37,740 bases of DNA from Acidimicrobiia bacterium (GTDB lineage: Bacteria; Actinomycetota; Acidimicrobiia; Spongiisociales; SHLN01), in assembly GCA_029862065.1 (NCBI GenBank), contig JAOTYB010000005.1, positions 1 through 37,740 on the forward strand. Reading direction: 5' to 3'. The notes beneath the pieces are model-generated. The model did no database searches, was not told where the DNA came from, and saw only the letters and a program-made list of their open reading frames with translations. Position numbers and translations under genes: made by a program. Shown here piece after piece: positions 14,239-23,692 of the stretch (position 1 is its first letter; each line of letters starts with the position of its first letter).

Positions 14239-14913
14239 TCAGCTAATCGCTTCGCTCCACTCTTCGGGTGGGTATTTCTTTGCCCGGTCGGCCTGGAGGC
14301 GGGCCGCGTAGGCGGCGGCTTCGCTCCTGCGACTCATCTCTAGTTTTGACAGGAGGTTCGAGACGTAGTTCTTGACGGTCTTCTCGGCCAGGAAGAGACT
14401 CTCGGCGATCTGCCGGTTGGTCTTGCCTTCCGAGATGAGGTCGAGGATCTTTCGTTCCTGGGGCGAAAGCCGGGCCAGAAGCGGATCGTCTGGTTCGTCA
14501 CCACGAATTCGGGCAAAGAGCCGATCGGTCAGGTTCGGATCCAGCAAAGACTCGCCGTCGCCCACCCGCCGCACTGCGTCCACCAGATCGGCCGAGTCAA
14601 TTCGCTTGAGCACGTAACCGGAAGCGCCCGCCATGATCGAAGACACAAGGGCCTCCTCGTCGGCGTAGGAGGTGAGCATCAGCACGTTTACGTCAGGCCA
14701 GCGGGAGCGAATCTCCCGACAGGCTTCAACTCCGGTGCCATCGGGCAGGCGCACATCCATCACAACAACGTCCGGTGAGTGATATCCGACCTGGCGGATG
14801 GCGTTGTCGACGTCGCCGGCTTCGCCAACCACATCCAGGTCGTCCTGGGCATCGATCAGCGTCTTGAGCCCCTGTCGTACTACTTCGTGGTCGTCGACGA
14901 GCACAACCTTCAT
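14239..14913 (-). CDS. NarL/DevR-type LuxR-family response regulator
   Basis: Start at MKVVLVDDHEVVRQGL. Phospho-acceptor region DVVVMDVRLPDG. LuxR HTH LSPQERKILDLISEGKTNRQIAESLFLAEKTVKNYVSNLLSKL. Confidence 0.92.
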   Translation of the reverse strand: MKVVLVDDHEVVRQGLKTLIDAQDDLDVVGEAGDVDNAIRQVGYHSPDVVVMDVRLPDGTGVEACREIRSRWPDVNVLMLTSYADEEALVSSIMAGASGYVLKRIDSADLVDAVRRVGDGESLLDPNLTDRLFARIRGDEPDDPLLARLSPQERKILDLISEGKTNRQIAESLFLAEKTVKNYVSNLLSKLEMSRRSEAAAYAARLQADRAKKYPPEEWSEAIS

Positions 14914-15025
14914 GCAATGGCTCCTTACGGCTCGTGCCAGCGTATCGCACCCGGGCTGGCATCTGCGAGCGCCGGTTGGCCCTTCCGGACAAGGCAAAAG
15001 ACCCTGCCCCGTTAGCCTCTGGATT

Positions 15026-16141
15026 GTGGATTCTCCTTCGTTTAGCTCAGACGATGTCGCCCGGTTGGTGGAGGCGGCTGCCACCGTAGCCGGGGCGGCT
15101 GAGTTGACGGAAACGCTCGAGGCGATTGTGGAAACCGCCATGGATCTAACGGGAGCGTCCTACGGAGCGCTCGGCGTGCTGGGAGGCCATGGCTTCCTTA
15201 CCGAGTTCATCCACAAGGGGGTGGATCCCGAGACCGCCAAAAGGATCGGGGCGCCACCATCGGGCCATGGCCTGCTGGGGACCATCACTCGGGTTGCTGA
15301 AGGTGTCCGCACCGACGATATCGCCGATCATCCGGACTCGGTCAGCTTCCCCGAGCACCATCCGCCGATGGATTCCTTCCTCGGGGTCCCCATTCGGGTG
15401 GGGGATGAGGTCTTCGGCAACCTCTATCTGACCAACAGCGAGGGTGGCTTCCGGGACGGCGACATGGCCAACGTCGAAGCTCTCGCCATCATCGGCGGCT
15501 CGGCCATCGCCAATGCTCGGACCTCCCGCCGGTTGCGCACCGTGGCTGTCGTGGAGGACCGCGAGCGAATTGCCCGTGACTTGCACGACGCCATCATCCA
15601 GGACATATTCGCCGTCGGCCTGGGTCTTCAGGCATTGGCCGGTCGCTTGGGGGAGAGCGAGGCGGCGGTTGAGATCCGTGATGCCACCAGCAAGCTCGAC
15701 GATGCGATCACGGGACTCCGACGGTTCATCTTCGACCTGCGGCCGCCGGTGTGGGCCCATCGGCGGATCCGGGACGAGCTCGCCGAGCTCGCCGATTCAC
15801 TGGCCGAGCCTCATGATGCCGAGGTCGAGCTCCTGTTCCGGGGCGAGGTCGACAGCCTTCCCGAGCGCGTGACAGACGAGATACTGCCCATCGTGCGTGA
15901 ATCGCTCAGCAACGCCTTGCGCCATTCCGGAGCGACCAACATCACTACTTCGGTCGTCCGACACGCCGATCGGGTGGTGGTTAGGACCATCGACAACGGC
16001 GACGGGTTCGAGGTGGAAGCAGCCAACAATGGGATGGGGCTCAGCAACCTGCGGTCGCGGGCCGTCAACCAGGGCGGGTTCGCCGAAATCAGCTCGAGTT
16101 CGGGTTCGGGCACCACGGTGGAGGTGACCCTTCCCCTGTAG
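15026..16141 (+). CDS. DevS/DosT-like GAF sensor histidine kinase (HisKA_3 + HATPase_c), probable heme-binding GAF
   Basis: GTG start (VDSPSFSSDD). GAF with FPEHHPPMDSFLGVPIRVGDEVFGNLYLTN. ERIARDLHDAIIQDIFAVGLGLQ H-box. NGMGLSNLRSRA. Confidence 0.88.
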   Translation: MDSPSFSSDDVARLVEAAATVAGAAELTETLEAIVETAMDLTGASYGALGVLGGHGFLTEFIHKGVDPETAKRIGAPPSGHGLLGTITRVAEGVRTDDIADHPDSVSFPEHHPPMDSFLGVPIRVGDEVFGNLYLTNSEGGFRDGDMANVEALAIIGGSAIANARTSRRLRTVAVVEDRERIARDLHDAIIQDIFAVGLGLQALAGRLGESEAAVEIRDATSKLDDAITGLRRFIFDLRPPVWAHRRIRDELAELADSLAEPHDAEVELLFRGEVDSLPERVTDEILPIVRESLSNALRHSGATNITTSVVRHADRVVVRTIDNGDGFEVEAANNGMGLSNLRSRAVNQGGFAEISSSSGSGTTVEVTLPL

Positions 16142-16172: not shown

Positions 16173-18872
16173 ATGACCCACGACACACTTCAGCAAGCGC
16201 CCAATTGGCACGCCATGGATGGCCTGCTGGTGGCGGGCGAGCTGGCTACCGACGTTGCCGCCGGCTTGGCCGCACCCGAGGCCGCCCGACGACTCGACCG
16301 CTATGGGCCAAACGTGCTCGAGGCGGGCGTCCGCACCCCCTGGTACGTGGTGTTTGGCCGCCAGTTCGTCGACGCCCTCATCGTGATCCTGGCGGTGGCC
16401 GCCGCGGTCTCCCTCGCCCTAGACGAGATCACCGATGCCGTGACGATCGTGGTGATCCTCGTGCTCAACGGCGTACTCGGCTTCGTTCAGGAGTGGCGGG
16501 CCGAACGGGCCATCGAGGCTCTCCAGAAGCTGCTGGCCCAGGAGGCCCGGGTAGTTCGGGATGGGCGCGAAGCCGAGATCGACGCGACGCTCCTCGTTCC
16601 CGGCGACGTGGTCCTGGTCGAAACCGGGGCCAGGATGCCGGCCGACATGCGGATCGTCCACGCCGTCGATCTCAAGCTCGATGAGTCAACGCTCACCGGA
16701 GAATCGGAATCGGTCACCAAAGGCGAGGACGAGGTGGAGGCGACGACCCCTCTGGCCGAGCGGACATCGATGAGCTGGATGGGGACGACCGTCACCAACG
16801 GCCGGGCACGCGGGGTGGTGGTCGGCACCGGCATGACGACGGAGTTCGGCCGGATCGCCGAGCTCACCCGCTCGGTTGGGGTTGAGCACACCCCGCTGCA
16901 GAAGAAGTTGGCGAGGCTTGGAACCATCCTCGGGTTGATCGCAGTGGGGATTGCCGTCATCGTCGCCGCCACCGGGGCCTTGCTTGGCCAGGACCTCGAG
17001 GAGATGTTCTTCACCGGGGTCTCCCTGGCGGTGGCCGTCGTCCCCGAGGGCCTGCCGGCTGTGGTCACGATCACTCTGGCACTCGGCATTCGTCGGATGG
17101 TGGCACGCAAAGCGCTGCTTCGCCGTCTGCAAGCGGCCGAAACGCTGGGGGCCGCCACGGTCATCTGCACCGATAAGACCGGGACCCTCACGCAGAACGC
17201 CATGACGGTCAGGCGTCTGTGGGTGCCGTCGGGGCTGGCAGAACTGACGGGTGTCGGTTACTCCCCCGACGACGGAGAGCTGGTGGCGGAGCCCGGCCTG
17301 GACGTCTTGGAGGTGGCGGCCGCTTTCGAGTCGGGATTGTGGTGCAACCACGCTCGCATCGAACGCGATGAAGCCGGCTGGCGCAGCGTGGGCGAACCGA
17401 CGGAAGCCGCCCTCGTTACCGCCGCCCACAAGGCTGAGGTCACAGTCGACGTTGAGCCGGTCGGAGAGTTCAGTTTCAACTCCCGGCGCAAGCGGATGAC
17501 GGTGCTTGAAAGGTCGGACCGGGGGCTCATCGCCCACACCAAGGGCGCCCCGGAGGTGTTGCTCTCCCGCTGCGACATGGTCGGATGGGGGGACTCGGCC
17601 GTTGAGCTTGACGAGGCTGACCGCCGTGCGCTGCAAGAGGTGGCCGACCGATTTGCCGCCGACGGTTTACGGACGCTGGCGCTGGCCCGTCGCCTGTTGC
17701 CGGCTGAGATTGCTCTCGACGAGGACGAGGTGGAAACCGGCCTTTCGTTGCTCGGCATCGTCGGCATTCTCGATCCGCCCCGTCCCGAGGTGCCGGGGGC
17801 GGTGGCCGAGGCTCGGGCGGCAGGGATCCGGGTCGTCATGATCACGGGCGACGCCGCCGCCACTGCCCTGGCGATCGCCTCGGCGGTAGGGCTGGGCACC
17901 GACCGGGCGGTGGTCGGGAACGAGATCACAGGCATGAGCGACGATGAGCTCCGGGCTGCTCTGACGGACGGTGCGGTGTTCGCCAGGACCACGCCTGAGC
18001 ACAAGCTGCGCATTGTCCAGTTGCTGCAACACGACGGCGACGTGGTCGGCATGACTGGCGACGGGGTCAACGACGCTCCGGCCCTCAAGCAGGCCGACAT
18101 CGGCATCTCAATGGGGCTGCGTGGCACCGACGTCGCCAAGGGCGCGAGCGACATGATTCTCACCGACGACAACTTCGCCTCCATTATCGGAGCGATCTCG
18201 GAGGGGCGCCGCCAGTTCGACAACATCCAGAAGTTCATCCGGTACCTGTTGTCTTCCAACGCCGGCGAGGTCATCGCCATCTTCATCAACATCCTCCTGA
18301 ACGCCCCGCTTATCCTCTTGCCCGTTCAGATCTTGTGGATGAATCTCGTGACCGACGGGCTCACCGCTCTGGCGCTGGGGGTAGAGCCCTCCGAGGAGGG
18401 CATCATGGCGCGGCCACCGCGCGACCCGGCGGCGGCCATCCTCTCGCGGCGGGGCCTCCTCCAGATTGTCGGGTTCGGCGCCTACATCGGAGCGGCCACC
18501 CTGTTCCTGTTCCACTTCTATCGGGTGGGGCTCGACCGTGACGTGGCCCTCGCCCAAACCATGGCCTTCACCGGGATGGTCGTGCTCGAGCACATGAATG
18601 TGTTCAACTTCCGGGCGTTGCATGCGCCGATGCGGGTGATTGGATTCTTCTCCAACCCGTGGTTGCTGGGGGCCTGGACGTTCACGATCAGTTTGCAGGT
18701 GGCGGTCGTCTATGTGCCGTTCTTGCAGAACGCCTTCGGGACGGTGGCGCTCGGGCCGGCCGATTGGCTGTGGGTGATCGCCGTGTCGGTGCCCGTGTTC
18801 GTGATCGGCGAGATAGCCAAGACCATCGGCTGGTCAAAGAGCAGACCGCAGCTGCCAGTCTCGCCGGTTTAG
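16173..18872 (+). CDS. P2-type cation-transporting ATPase (CtpF/SERCA-like)
   Basis: [47 protein letters not shown], and N-terminal ATPase domain GLAAPEAARRLDRYGPNVL. Confidence 0.93.
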   Translation: MTHDTLQQAPNWHAMDGLLVAGELATDVAAGLAAPEAARRLDRYGPNVLEAGVRTPWYVVFGRQFVDALIVILAVAAAVSLALDEITDAVTIVVILVLNGVLGFVQEWRAERAIEALQKLLAQEARVVRDGREAEIDATLLVPGDVVLVETGARMPADMRIVHAVDLKLDESTLTGESESVTKGEDEVEATTPLAERTSMSWMGTTVTNGRARGVVVGTGMTTEFGRIAELTRSVGVEHTPLQKKLARLGTILGLIAVGIAVIVAATGALLGQDLEEMFFTGVSLAVAVVPEGLPAVVTITLALGIRRMVARKALLRRLQAAETLGAATVICTDKTGTLTQNAMTVRRLWVPSGLAELTGVGYSPDDGELVAEPGLDVLEVAAAFESGLWCNHARIERDEAGWRSVGEPTEAALVTAAHKAEVTVDVEPVGEFSFNSRRKRMTVLERSDRGLIAHTKGAPEVLLSRCDMVGWGDSAVELDEADRRALQEVADRFAADGLRTLALARRLLPAEIALDEDEVETGLSLLGIVGILDPPRPEVPGAVAEARAAGIRVVMITGDAAATALAIASAVGLGTDRAVVGNEITGMSDDELRAALTDGAVFARTTPEHKLRIVQLLQHDGDVVGMTGDGVNDAPALKQADIGISMGLRGTDVAKGASDMILTDDNFASIIGAISEGRRQFDNIQKFIRYLLSSNAGEVIAIFINILLNAPLILLPVQILWMNLVTDGLTALALGVEPSEEGIMARPPRDPAAAILSRRGLLQIVGFGAYIGAATLFLFHFYRVGLDRDVALAQTMAFTGMVVLEHMNVFNFRALHAPMRVIGFFSNPWLLGAWTFTISLQVAVVYVPFLQNAFGTVALGPADWLWVIAVSVPVFVIGEIAKTIGWSKSRPQLPVSPV

Positions 18873-19330
18873 AGTCGGCCCGGTCGCGTGCGGGGAGCGA
18901 ACCCGGCACCCGACGACCGCCCGCTCATCTCATCGATGGGGATCTTGACCACCACTTCTTTGGGGGCCAGCGGGCTGGGGCGGGAAAAGGCCAGGGCCGA
19001 GCCGAACACGTTGCGGTACTTCACCAGGAGCAGCCCGATGGCGTCGGCTTCTTCACCCGAGTCCTCAACTACCTCGGCCGTTCCCCAGAGCAAGACGCTT
19101 TCCCAGTCCCCTTGCTCGTTGGAATACCGGCTCACTTCTACACAACACCGGCCGCCGGACAGCAACGCCGTCAGCCGTCGACCCGGTCCGGTTCGGAGGT
19201 AGAGGGCATCGTTCAGCTGAACGAACGAGATGGGGGTGACGTAGGGCTCGCCGTCGGTGATGACGGCCAGATGGCCGACTGGCTCCTCGGCGAGTAGTCG
19301 ATGGCACTGAGCCTGCGTTATCGGTTCCAC
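18869..19330 (-). CDS. Pyridoxamine 5'-phosphate oxidase-like flavin-binding protein
   Basis: GTG start. EEPVGHLAVITDGEPYVTPISFVQLNDALYLRTGPG is a typical split-barrel PNPOx-like N-terminus. Confidence 0.85.
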   Translation of the reverse strand: MEPITQAQCHRLLAEEPVGHLAVITDGEPYVTPISFVQLNDALYLRTGPGRRLTALLSGGRCCVEVSRYSNEQGDWESVLLWGTAEVVEDSGEEADAIGLLLVKYRNVFGSALAFSRPSPLAPKEVVVKIPIDEMSGRSSGAGFAPRTRPGRL

Positions 19331-20296: not shown

Positions 20297-22471
20297 CTAC
20301 CTGGCGAAACGCTTCAACCGAACGCTATTCAGCACGACGCTCACGCTCGAGAAGGCCATGGCGAGAGCGGCTATCGAAGGGTCGAGCTGGCCAAAGGCTG
20401 CGAGCGGTATGGCGGCGGCGTTGTAGAAGAAGGCCCAGAACAGGTTCTGTCCGATGGTGCGGTGGGTGCGGCGGGCCAGTTTGACCGCCGTCACGACCTG
20501 GCGGGGATCGCCCGACAACAGCACGATGTCGCCGGATTCAATGGCGATGTCGGTTCCGGAGCCGACGGCCATGCCCAGATCAGCCTGAGTGAGAGCCGGA
20601 GCGTCGTTCACGCCATCTCCGACAAAGGCGACGATCTCGCCTTCTTGCTGGAGCGCCTCGACTGCGGCTGCCTTCTCGGCCGGAACCACGCTGTCGAGCA
20701 CCCTCCCGATCCCGACGTCCTTCGCCACCGCCTGAGCCGTCACCGGATTGTCGCCGGTCACCATGACGAGGTCGATATCCATTGCCCGGAGGTCGGTCAT
20801 GGCCGCCGACACACCCGGCCGGGGGGCGTCAACCAGCGCCACGTGGCCTCGCACCTCTCCGTTCCAGGCTGCGACGAACACCGTGCGGCCCCCGCTTTCC
20901 AGCCCGGAGATCTGCCGTTTCACTTCCTCGGACACAGGGATGCCGAGGCTCTCTATGAGACGCTCGTTGCCGATCTGAACGGCGGTGGTGTCCACCGTGC
21001 CGCGAATTCCCCCGCCGGGCAGTTCCTCGACGTCGGTCGGTGAAATGAGCGTTAGGTCTCGCTCCTCGGCTTCGAGGGTCACCGCTCGCGCCACCGGATG
21101 GCCGCTGGCAGACTCCAGTGAGCCAACCAGGGTTAAGAAGCGGTCGGGGTCGACGGTTGTCTCGATGTGCTCGACTGTCATGCGGCCGGAGGTAATGGTC
21201 CCGGTCTTGTCGAAGGCGACGGTGTCGATCGTCCGGGCGCGCTCGAACACCTCGGCCGTCTTGAAGAGCACTCCGAGCTCGGCGCCTCGGCCTGATCCGA
21301 CCATGATGGCGGTAGGGGTCGCCAACCCGAGAGCACACGGACACGCGATGATGAGGACGGCAACCGCGTTTCTCCACGACGTCTCCACTTCCCCGCTCAC
21401 CGCCAGCCACACGATGCCGGTGGTTAGGGCCACGAGGATGACAACGGGCACGAAAACCGAAGACACCCGATCGGCCAGGCGTTGGGCGGGCGCCTTTGAG
21501 GCCTGGGCCCGTTCAACCATGTGGGCGATTTGGGCAAGGGCGGTGTCTGAGCCGATGGCCGTGGCTTCCACCACCACCCGCCCCTGGTGGTTGATCGTGG
21601 CGCCATAGACGACATCGCCTGGGCCTTTGTCCACCGGGAGTGCCTCACCGGTGAGCAGGCTCTCGTTGAATGACGAGCGCCCGGCGTTGATGAGGCCGTC
21701 GGTGGGGATCTTCTCGCCGGGGTTGACCACCATGAGATCCCCGGGCCGGACGGTCTCGGCGGACACAAGCGTCTCGACCCCGTTGCGGAGGAGGCGGGCT
21801 TCTTTGGCTCCCAGCTCGAGCAGCCGGCTAATCGCTTGAGAGGCGCTGCCCTTGGCCCGTGCCTCGAAATAGCGGCCGAGGAGAATGAACGTGACGATGA
21901 GAGCGGCCGTCTCGAAGAACACCTCTTCGTCGGCGAAGATCGCCCACACCGAGTAGCCGTAGGCCGCCAGCGTGCCAACCGACACAAGTGTGTCCATGCT
22001 GGTGTCCAGGGCTCGCAGCCGCAGCCAGGCGTTGCGGTGGAACTGCCAGCCAAAGACGAACACCACCGGAGTGGCCAGCGCCCACACGGTGAGCCGGACG
22101 GCGTCGCCCCCATCGGTGAGCAGCATGATCAACATGAGGGGGATCGTGAAGGCCGCCGCCCGGGCGAGGTTTCGCCGCTGGAACTTGACGTCCCGGTCGA
22201 ATCGCTCGGTCGGGACCTCGCGCTCGTCCTCCTCGGTTATCTCGGTGAGGTGGTAGCCGAGCTTGTCAATCGCCGCCGTCAGCTGACCGACATTGGCGCC
22301 GGGATTCAACGTCACGGTCGCACCGGCGCCGGGGTAGTTGACGACCGCCGACTCGACACCGTCCTGCTTGCCGAGCACCCGCTCGATCCGGACCGCACAC
22401 GAGGCACAGGTCATGCCTTGGACGGCGAATTCGACCGATGTTGGGGCCTCGGTCGGGGGAGACTCGATCAT
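20297..22471 (-). CDS. copA: Heavy-metal (copper) translocating P1B-type ATPase
   Basis: HMA domain [63 protein letters not shown]. Confidence 0.92.
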
Positions 22472-22677
22472 TGAGCTACTTCGTAGCCTTGATCCTCAAT
22501 GGCGGAAACGATTTCGTCGAGCCCGACCTGGGCGGTCTCGTACGTAATGGTCACGGTCTTCTCCGGGATGTCGACGACGGAATCGGTCACACCCGATAGC
22601 TCGGACGTAGCTCCTTCGATCGACACCTTGCAGTGGTCGCAGGAGATATCGGGTACAGAGAGTGTTTGGATTTCCAT
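22468..22677 (-). CDS. CopZ-like heavy-metal chaperone (HMA domain), 69 aa
   Basis: Start at [27 protein letters not shown]. 4-bp overlap with copA. The track's longer ORF is an upstream extension. Confidence 0.88.
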
Positions 22678-22685
22678 AGCGCACA

Positions 22686-22724
22686 AGCATATCCCGCAAT
22701 CCGGCTTTGCGTGGTCCGTAAACT
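22686..22724. promoter_or_regulatory. Divergent leaderless-type -10 boxes for copZ-like and cystathionine beta-synthase genes
   Basis: Minus strand TATGCT (22691-22686), 8 nt before ATG at 22677. Plus strand TAAACT (22719-22724), 8 nt before ATG at 22733. Confidence 0.55.
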
Positions 22725-22732
22725 CAACGGCC

Positions 22733-23692
22733 ATGGAGATCCGGCCCAGCATTTTGGAGGCAATTGGCAACACGCCCCTGGTCCGTCTGGCCCGTCTCCA
22801 TCCGCCGGGCAACCTGGTCGCCAAGCTCGAGTACACCAACCCGGGAGGCTCGATCAAGGACCGGATCGGGATAACGATGATTGAGGCGGCCGAGCGTGAT
22901 GGACTGCTCAAACCGGGTGGGACGATCGTCGAGCCGACGAGTGGCAACACGGGGGTTGGTCTGGCCCTGGCAGCTGCGGTCAAGGGCTACCGGCTCGTGT
23001 GCGTGATGCCGGACAAGATGTCGCAGGAGAAGATCGACGGGTTGCGGGCCTACGGCGCCGAGGTGCACGTCGCTCCGACCGATGTGGATCCCGGCGACCC
23101 CCGGTCCTATTACTCGACCGCCGCCCGGCTGGTGGCGGAGATCCCCGGCGCCTTCAGCCCGAATCAGTATGCCAACCCGGCCAACCCGATCTCCCATTAT
23201 GAGACCACCGGGCCGGAGATCTGGACGCAGACCGACGGCTCGATCGATGTCCTGGTGGTGGGGGTGGGCACCGGAGGGACGATCACGGGAACGGCTCGTT
23301 ACCTCAAGGAACAGGCCCCGGACGTTGAAGTGGTCGGCGTGGATCCGGTGGGGTCGATCTACACGGCCACGTCGGACGCTGAGGTCCACACCTACCTGAC
23401 CGAGGGCGTGGGCGAGGACTTCTGGCCCGAGACCTTCGATCCCGATGTCGTTGACCGGTTCGTGCAGGTGAGTGACGCGGCGGCCTACGCCATGGCCCGC
23501 CGGTTGGCCAGTGTCGAGGGTGTGCTGGTCGGGTCCTCCGGAGGATTGGCGGTTGAGGGGGCGCTGGAGGTGGCCACCGACGCCCCCGACAAGCTGGTGG
23601 TGGTGATCATCGCCGACTCAGGCCGCAGCTATGTTTCCAAAGTGTTCAACGATGAATGGATGATCGCCAGCGGGCTCATGGAGGGGCAGTGA
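22733..23692 (+). CDS. Cystathionine beta-synthase / cysteine synthase family, no C-terminal CBS domains
   Basis: IGNTPLVRLARL, YTNPGGSIKDRIG, EPTSGNTGVGLALAAAVKGYR. C-terminal SKVFNDEWM is CBS-like. Confidence 0.88.
   Translation: MEIRPSILEAIGNTPLVRLARLHPPGNLVAKLEYTNPGGSIKDRIGITMIEAAERDGLLKPGGTIVEPTSGNTGVGLALAAAVKGYRLVCVMPDKMSQEKIDGLRAYGAEVHVAPTDVDPGDPRSYYSTAARLVAEIPGAFSPNQYANPANPISHYETTGPEIWTQTDGSIDVLVVGVGTGGTITGTARYLKEQAPDVEVVGVDPVGSIYTATSDAEVHTYLTEGVGEDFWPETFDPDVVDRFVQVSDAAAYAMARRLASVEGVLVGSSGGLAVEGALEVATDAPDKLVVVIIADSGRSYVSKVFNDEWMIASGLMEGQ

Follow-up and report, generated by a model that had tools for sequence, protein, structure and literature searches.

A predicted DosS/DosT-like heme-GAF histidine kinase without GAF-B, paired with a DosR-like regulator, in an Acidimicrobiia bacterium

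Can a histidine kinase with a single GAF domain work like DosS and DosT, the best-studied GAF heme sensors? This question is raised by a gene at positions 15026-16141 (forward strand) of a 37,740-nucleotide stretch of DNA, hereafter the window, from an Acidimicrobiia bacterium (GCA_029862065.1, contig JAOTYB010000005.1, positions 1-37,740 of the forward strand). The gene encodes a protein of 371 amino acids, the translation of which contains SFPEHHPPMDSFLGVPIRVGDEVFGNLYLT. Its GTG start at 15026 aligned with ATG starts in four congeners, and no obvious ribosome-binding site was seen upstream of this codon.

Pfam analysis of the kinase identified one GAF domain (GAF_2, 3.5e-17; residues 25-161, 15098-15508), followed by a HisKA_3 domain (residues 179-241, 15560-15748) and an HATPase_c domain (residues 286-371, 15881-16138). 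A family GAF HMM likewise found one GAF in the query kinase and two in DevS-type proteins, in agreement with an earlier sequence-only reading, which had proposed a single GAF directly joined to HisKA_3/HATPase_c and had set this against the two GAFs of DevS/DosT. The catalytic motifs are intact, with the phospho-acceptor His187 (15584-15586), assigned from the HisKA_3 match, and the ATP-site residues E292, N296, D323 and G325 being invariant across 55 kinase sequences. As GAF-B was looked for by both Pfam and the family HMM and was missing, the query kinase lies, by architecture, outside the tandem-GAF DosS/DosT family as defined; judging from its sequence, however, it very probably works like the members of that family.

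Placement and conservation of the GAF domain

By phmmer against the PDB, the best match was to M. tuberculosis DosT (Rv2027c; 2vzw, E=1e-39, approximately 52% identity over GAF-A), followed by DosS/DevS (Rv3132c; 2w3d, 3e-34). In these alignments His112 (15359-15361), the predicted proximal heme ligand, corresponds to DevS His149 and DosT His147, and Tyr134 (15425-15427), the predicted distal ligand-discriminating residue, to DevS Tyr171 and DosT Tyr169. The pair is 22 residues apart in the query as in DevS, and DosT shares this spacing. Both the correspondence with DevS and the spacing had been put forward in the sequence-only reading and were confirmed by the translation and phmmer; the DevS string given there proved to be the exact sequence of 2w3d. 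DosT also has a HisKA_3-type kinase but, unlike the query, carries a GAF-B that separates its heme GAF from the kinase.

A tree of heme-GAF kinases, suggested earlier as a check, was built from 97 GAF domains. GAF-B split from all other GAFs with a support of 100/100, and the single GAFs fell among GAF-A, apart from GAF-B. Several switches between one- and two-GAF forms are apparent in this unrooted tree. The AlphaFold2 models had a mean pLDDT of 86 for the full-length kinase and 93 for the GAF alone. The GAF model matched all 17 DosS/DosT heme-GAF chains listed at E<=3e-16 and 0.9-1.8 A (0.9 A for DosT, 1.0-1.8 A for DosS/DevS), whereas the next-best match, a phosphotransferase GAF, was at 3e-9 and 3.2 A. 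AlphaFold saw DosS/DosT in training, so that this fold match is support and not proof; it is compatible with the binding of heme b via a His.

In order to assess conservation, a first homologue set seeded with FPEHHPPM, which was circular for this motif, was replaced by a motif-free search with the whole kinase protein against 247 genomes of the same class. Matches at E<=1e-30 were present in 103 of these genomes, mostly one per genome. H112 and Y134 were both kept in 87 of the 90 proteins recovered, the three exceptions being distant kinases with poorly aligned GAFs, while the neighbouring His111 was swapped for many other residues in the same set. Because both residues are kept while the adjacent one varies, their conservation is far above chance. 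All 83 single GAFs had His and Tyr at the positions of DevS His149 and Tyr171, neither residue being typical of GAF-B (64 rows). A phylum-wide sample (n=20) had His in all 20 members and Tyr in 17, with Phe in the remaining three, all of one genus. Taken together, sequence, conservation, tree and modelled fold support the assignment of the single GAF to the heme-binding GAF-A type of DosS/DosT rather than to GAF-B.

A natural Tyr-to-Phe replacement at the position of DevS Tyr171 was observed in single-GAF kinases of one large-genome genus (L256, L257, L258); in DevS itself, Y171F abolishes ligand discrimination (PMC4082495). At two other loci (L160, L165), from genomes of about 1 Mb in one genus of the class, a divergent relative of the kinase with His and Tyr retained was, at first look, the only candidate in each very small genome.

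Proposed signalling and alternative readings

Overall, we consider it likely, from sequence, models and analogy, that the product of the gene is a soluble heme-GAF histidine kinase working like DosT/DosS but without GAF-B, together with a DosR-like partner. Heme b would be held in the GAF, ligated proximally by His112, and Tyr134 would sense what is bound on the distal side. If the switch resembles that of DosT/DosS, O2 binding would turn the kinase off, and it would be on in the deoxy state or with NO or CO bound. The signal would pass from the GAF to the DHp domain along one continuous helix, predicted by AlphaFold2 to span residues 144-208 (15455-15649), from the GAF end through the phospho-acceptor His, and would set the phosphorylation of His187. 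The phosphate would then be transferred from His187 to Asp53 of the divergently encoded regulator, which is predicted to act at DosR-type palindromes in its own divergent promoter and before the [NiFe] hydrogenase operon of the genus, as part of a low-oxygen response.

The distal side of the pocket bears on a first alternative, namely that the GAF binds heme but responds mainly to redox state or heme availability (off when ferric, on when ferrous) and not to O2, NO or CO. Gas against redox sensing is disputed even for DosS (PMC4082495). The proposed redox determinant, DevS Glu87, is nevertheless replaced by Gly50 (15173-15175) in the query and by Gly in all 83 single GAFs, and this Gly is shared with DosT (Gly85), which forms a stable oxy complex; we therefore regard a redox sensor as unlikely. 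DevS His89 corresponds to Leu52 in the query and is not His in the single GAFs, so the DevS-type Glu87-His89 distal network was not found in the query kinase. The pocket residue Phe61 (DevS F98) was retained in 82/83 single GAFs.

A structural role is conceivable for the conserved HP..Y motif, and HPxM...Y does occur in distant single-GAF kinases with a different surrounding sequence (L156-L161; L259), as would be expected if it were shared for structural reasons by a broader GAF_2 subfamily with another ligand (e.g., nucleotide or flavin) or none. Against this, the solved structures nearest in both sequence and fold are heme GAFs, any other GAF being far more distant, H111 varies where H112 does not, and the kinase is accompanied by a DosR-like partner and DosR-type boxes (see below), all of which makes a purely structural role quite improbable.

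The proposed coupling of the GAF to its kinase was examined through the length of the stretch between the end of the GAF and the phospho-His, which was 21 in 59 of the 69 single-GAF proteins measured and 21-24 in all but two; the His-finding pattern missed 40 proteins, so that these data cover many of the proteins but not all. In most two-GAF proteins the distance from the GAF-B end to the phospho-His was 21-22, and the predicted heme GAF thus takes the place of GAF-B relative to the phospho-His. A reduced DevS that has lost both GAF-B and gas control, and whose kinase is constitutive, is very improbable given this spacing, the invariant sensor and kinase residues and the usual single copy per genome across the order, even though an M. 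smegmatis DosS construct lacking the heme domain retains activity but does not respond (PMC4082495) and coupling therefore cannot be taken for granted.

As far as sequence goes, the earlier interpretation of a DosS/DosT-like heme-GAF kinase is well supported, with two refinements: the protein is not an unusual one, and its predicted distal pocket is DosT-like, without the Glu87/His89 pair of DevS.

The divergent regulator, DosR-type boxes and neighbouring genes

A NarL-family response regulator with a predicted phospho-Asp53 is encoded divergently from the kinase (14239-14913, reverse strand), an arrangement in which the locus differs from that of DosS/DevS. The regulator comprises a receiver and a LuxR-type HTH, and its best solved relative is M. 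tuberculosis DevR/DosR (Rv3133c; 3c3w, E=2.2e-66). The recognition helix is kept, and the stretch LAEKTVKNYVS in this region is identical between the two proteins. In contrast with DosR/DevR, its DNA binding is a prediction and its putative regulon is in part predicted. Almost every locus from the order has this divergent pair; in other parts of the phylum, kinase and regulator mostly share a strand. Two DosR-like regulator ORFs stood in tandem beside the divergent kinase at two loci (L205, L211).

Between kinase and regulator lies a degenerate DosR-box-like element, AAGGCAAAAGACCCT (14991-15005), which aligns with GGGCAAAGGTCCC of congeners and matches 10/14 consensus positions, a score not significant by itself. 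Among 39 divergent intergenic regions, AA[AG]GTCCC occurred in 12 (0.28 in shuffles) and the 14-base DosR core scored approximately 8 s.d. above shuffles, an enrichment overstated by the fact that these regions are mutually related and not independent. Examples from relatives are GGGACTTTCGACCC and GGGACCTTCGGCCT, and GGGACCTTCGGCCC is the core of the listed OsdR sites of Streptomyces (PMC5069765). The OsdK-OsdR system of Streptomyces coelicolor (SCO0203-0204) resembles the present one in combining a kinase with a DosR-type regulator and in its box type, GGGACCTTCGGCCC, but has been described as a DevS/DosT-type orthologue and is an osdR-osdK operon rather than a divergent pair (PMC5069765). 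The divergent DosR-like regulator and the DosR-type boxes appear to provide a separate line of evidence that gas or redox state is sensed.

Within the window, the DosR core consensus at <=3 mismatches gave nothing above chance. A whole-genome scan with a looser box consensus yielded 23 sites, as against 38 in the reversed control, and no genome-wide regulon was called from it.

A DosR-like site is also present in the intergenic region ahead of a gene that encodes an Fe-S subunit of the hydrogenase beta type. It lies approximately 45-50 bases before the [NiFe] hydrogenase beta-subunit gene (L215:963-2081, reverse strand, and upstream; L219-L221) and was kept in the four congeners examined. Upstream of this gene, consensus scores were 4-7 s.d. 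above shuffles across 22 relatives, the site having been chosen from a genome scan after the gene was seen and then tested in the relatives. In a congener, the beta-subunit gene is the first in a row that also encodes the gamma, delta and alpha subunits of a soluble [NiFe] hydrogenase, and this set of subunits suggests an enzyme of group 3b. We read this enzyme as the counterpart of M. smegmatis Hyd3, whose cluster (MSMEG_3931-3927) shows low-oxygen induction (PMC2799521).

The gene for a CtpF-like P2A-type cation ATPase (16173-18872, forward strand) starts 31 bp past the kinase stop and is probably co-transcribed with the kinase. It resembles ctpF, a gene induced in mycobacterial hypoxia (PMC4082495), and may belong to the regulon. 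As a conserved partner, however, the ATPase was rejected, as it comes directly after the kinase in only some members of the genus, L001 being an exception, and is absent from that position in the rest of the order. It lies between the kinase and a PNPOx gene in the window and in L003; in L001 the PNPOx gene directly follows the kinase, which suggests gain or loss of the ATPase gene within the group. The PNPOx gene of the window, identified by Pfam (Pyridox_ox_2/PNPOx-like; 18869-19330, reverse strand, convergent), has convergent counterparts close to the kinase in numerous genomes of the order, spread over several families, and resembles a PNPOx-family gene of M. avium that is induced in hypoxia (PMC11876180). 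No convincing box was found before it in the window. Further along are a gene for a copper-type P1B ATPase with an HMA domain (20297-22471, reverse strand) and, next to it, a small ORF ending in a heavy-metal chaperone-like sequence (22468-22983, reverse strand).

Distribution and significance

In this order, kinases of this kind usually have a single GAF. Across Actinomycetota the single-GAF form was found in roughly 25-30 of 198 sampled genomes, counted as full-length single-GAF-sized matches, and it is present in Chloroflexota as well. A Tsukamurella plasmid record (NZ_LR134456.1, 295542-296510) gave a single-piece match over 85% of the kinase and is perhaps a single-GAF relative in Mycobacteriales. 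On the sequence evidence, we take the kinase to be a real and widespread GAF-B-less variant of the DosS/DosT-DosR kind. We found no description of single-GAF DosS-like kinases in the accessible literature, a body that leaves most subscription papers outside its scope.

The role of GAF-B in relaying the gas signal is not understood (PMC4082495). Tentatively, single-GAF kinases may constitute a large class of heme sensors, as yet undescribed, in which coupling is direct and the heme GAF is in the position of GAF-B; in that case GAF-B might be a relay that can be dispensed with, and the single-GAF protein perhaps the older or simpler working form. Such a widespread natural form without GAF-B would allow the heme-to-kinase step to be studied in a protein of approximately 370 residues, simpler than the tuberculosis dormancy sensors DosS/DosT for asking how oxygen sensing reaches the kinase. 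The findings also suggest that a DosR-type low-oxygen response would reach environmental actinobacteria known mainly from metagenomes.
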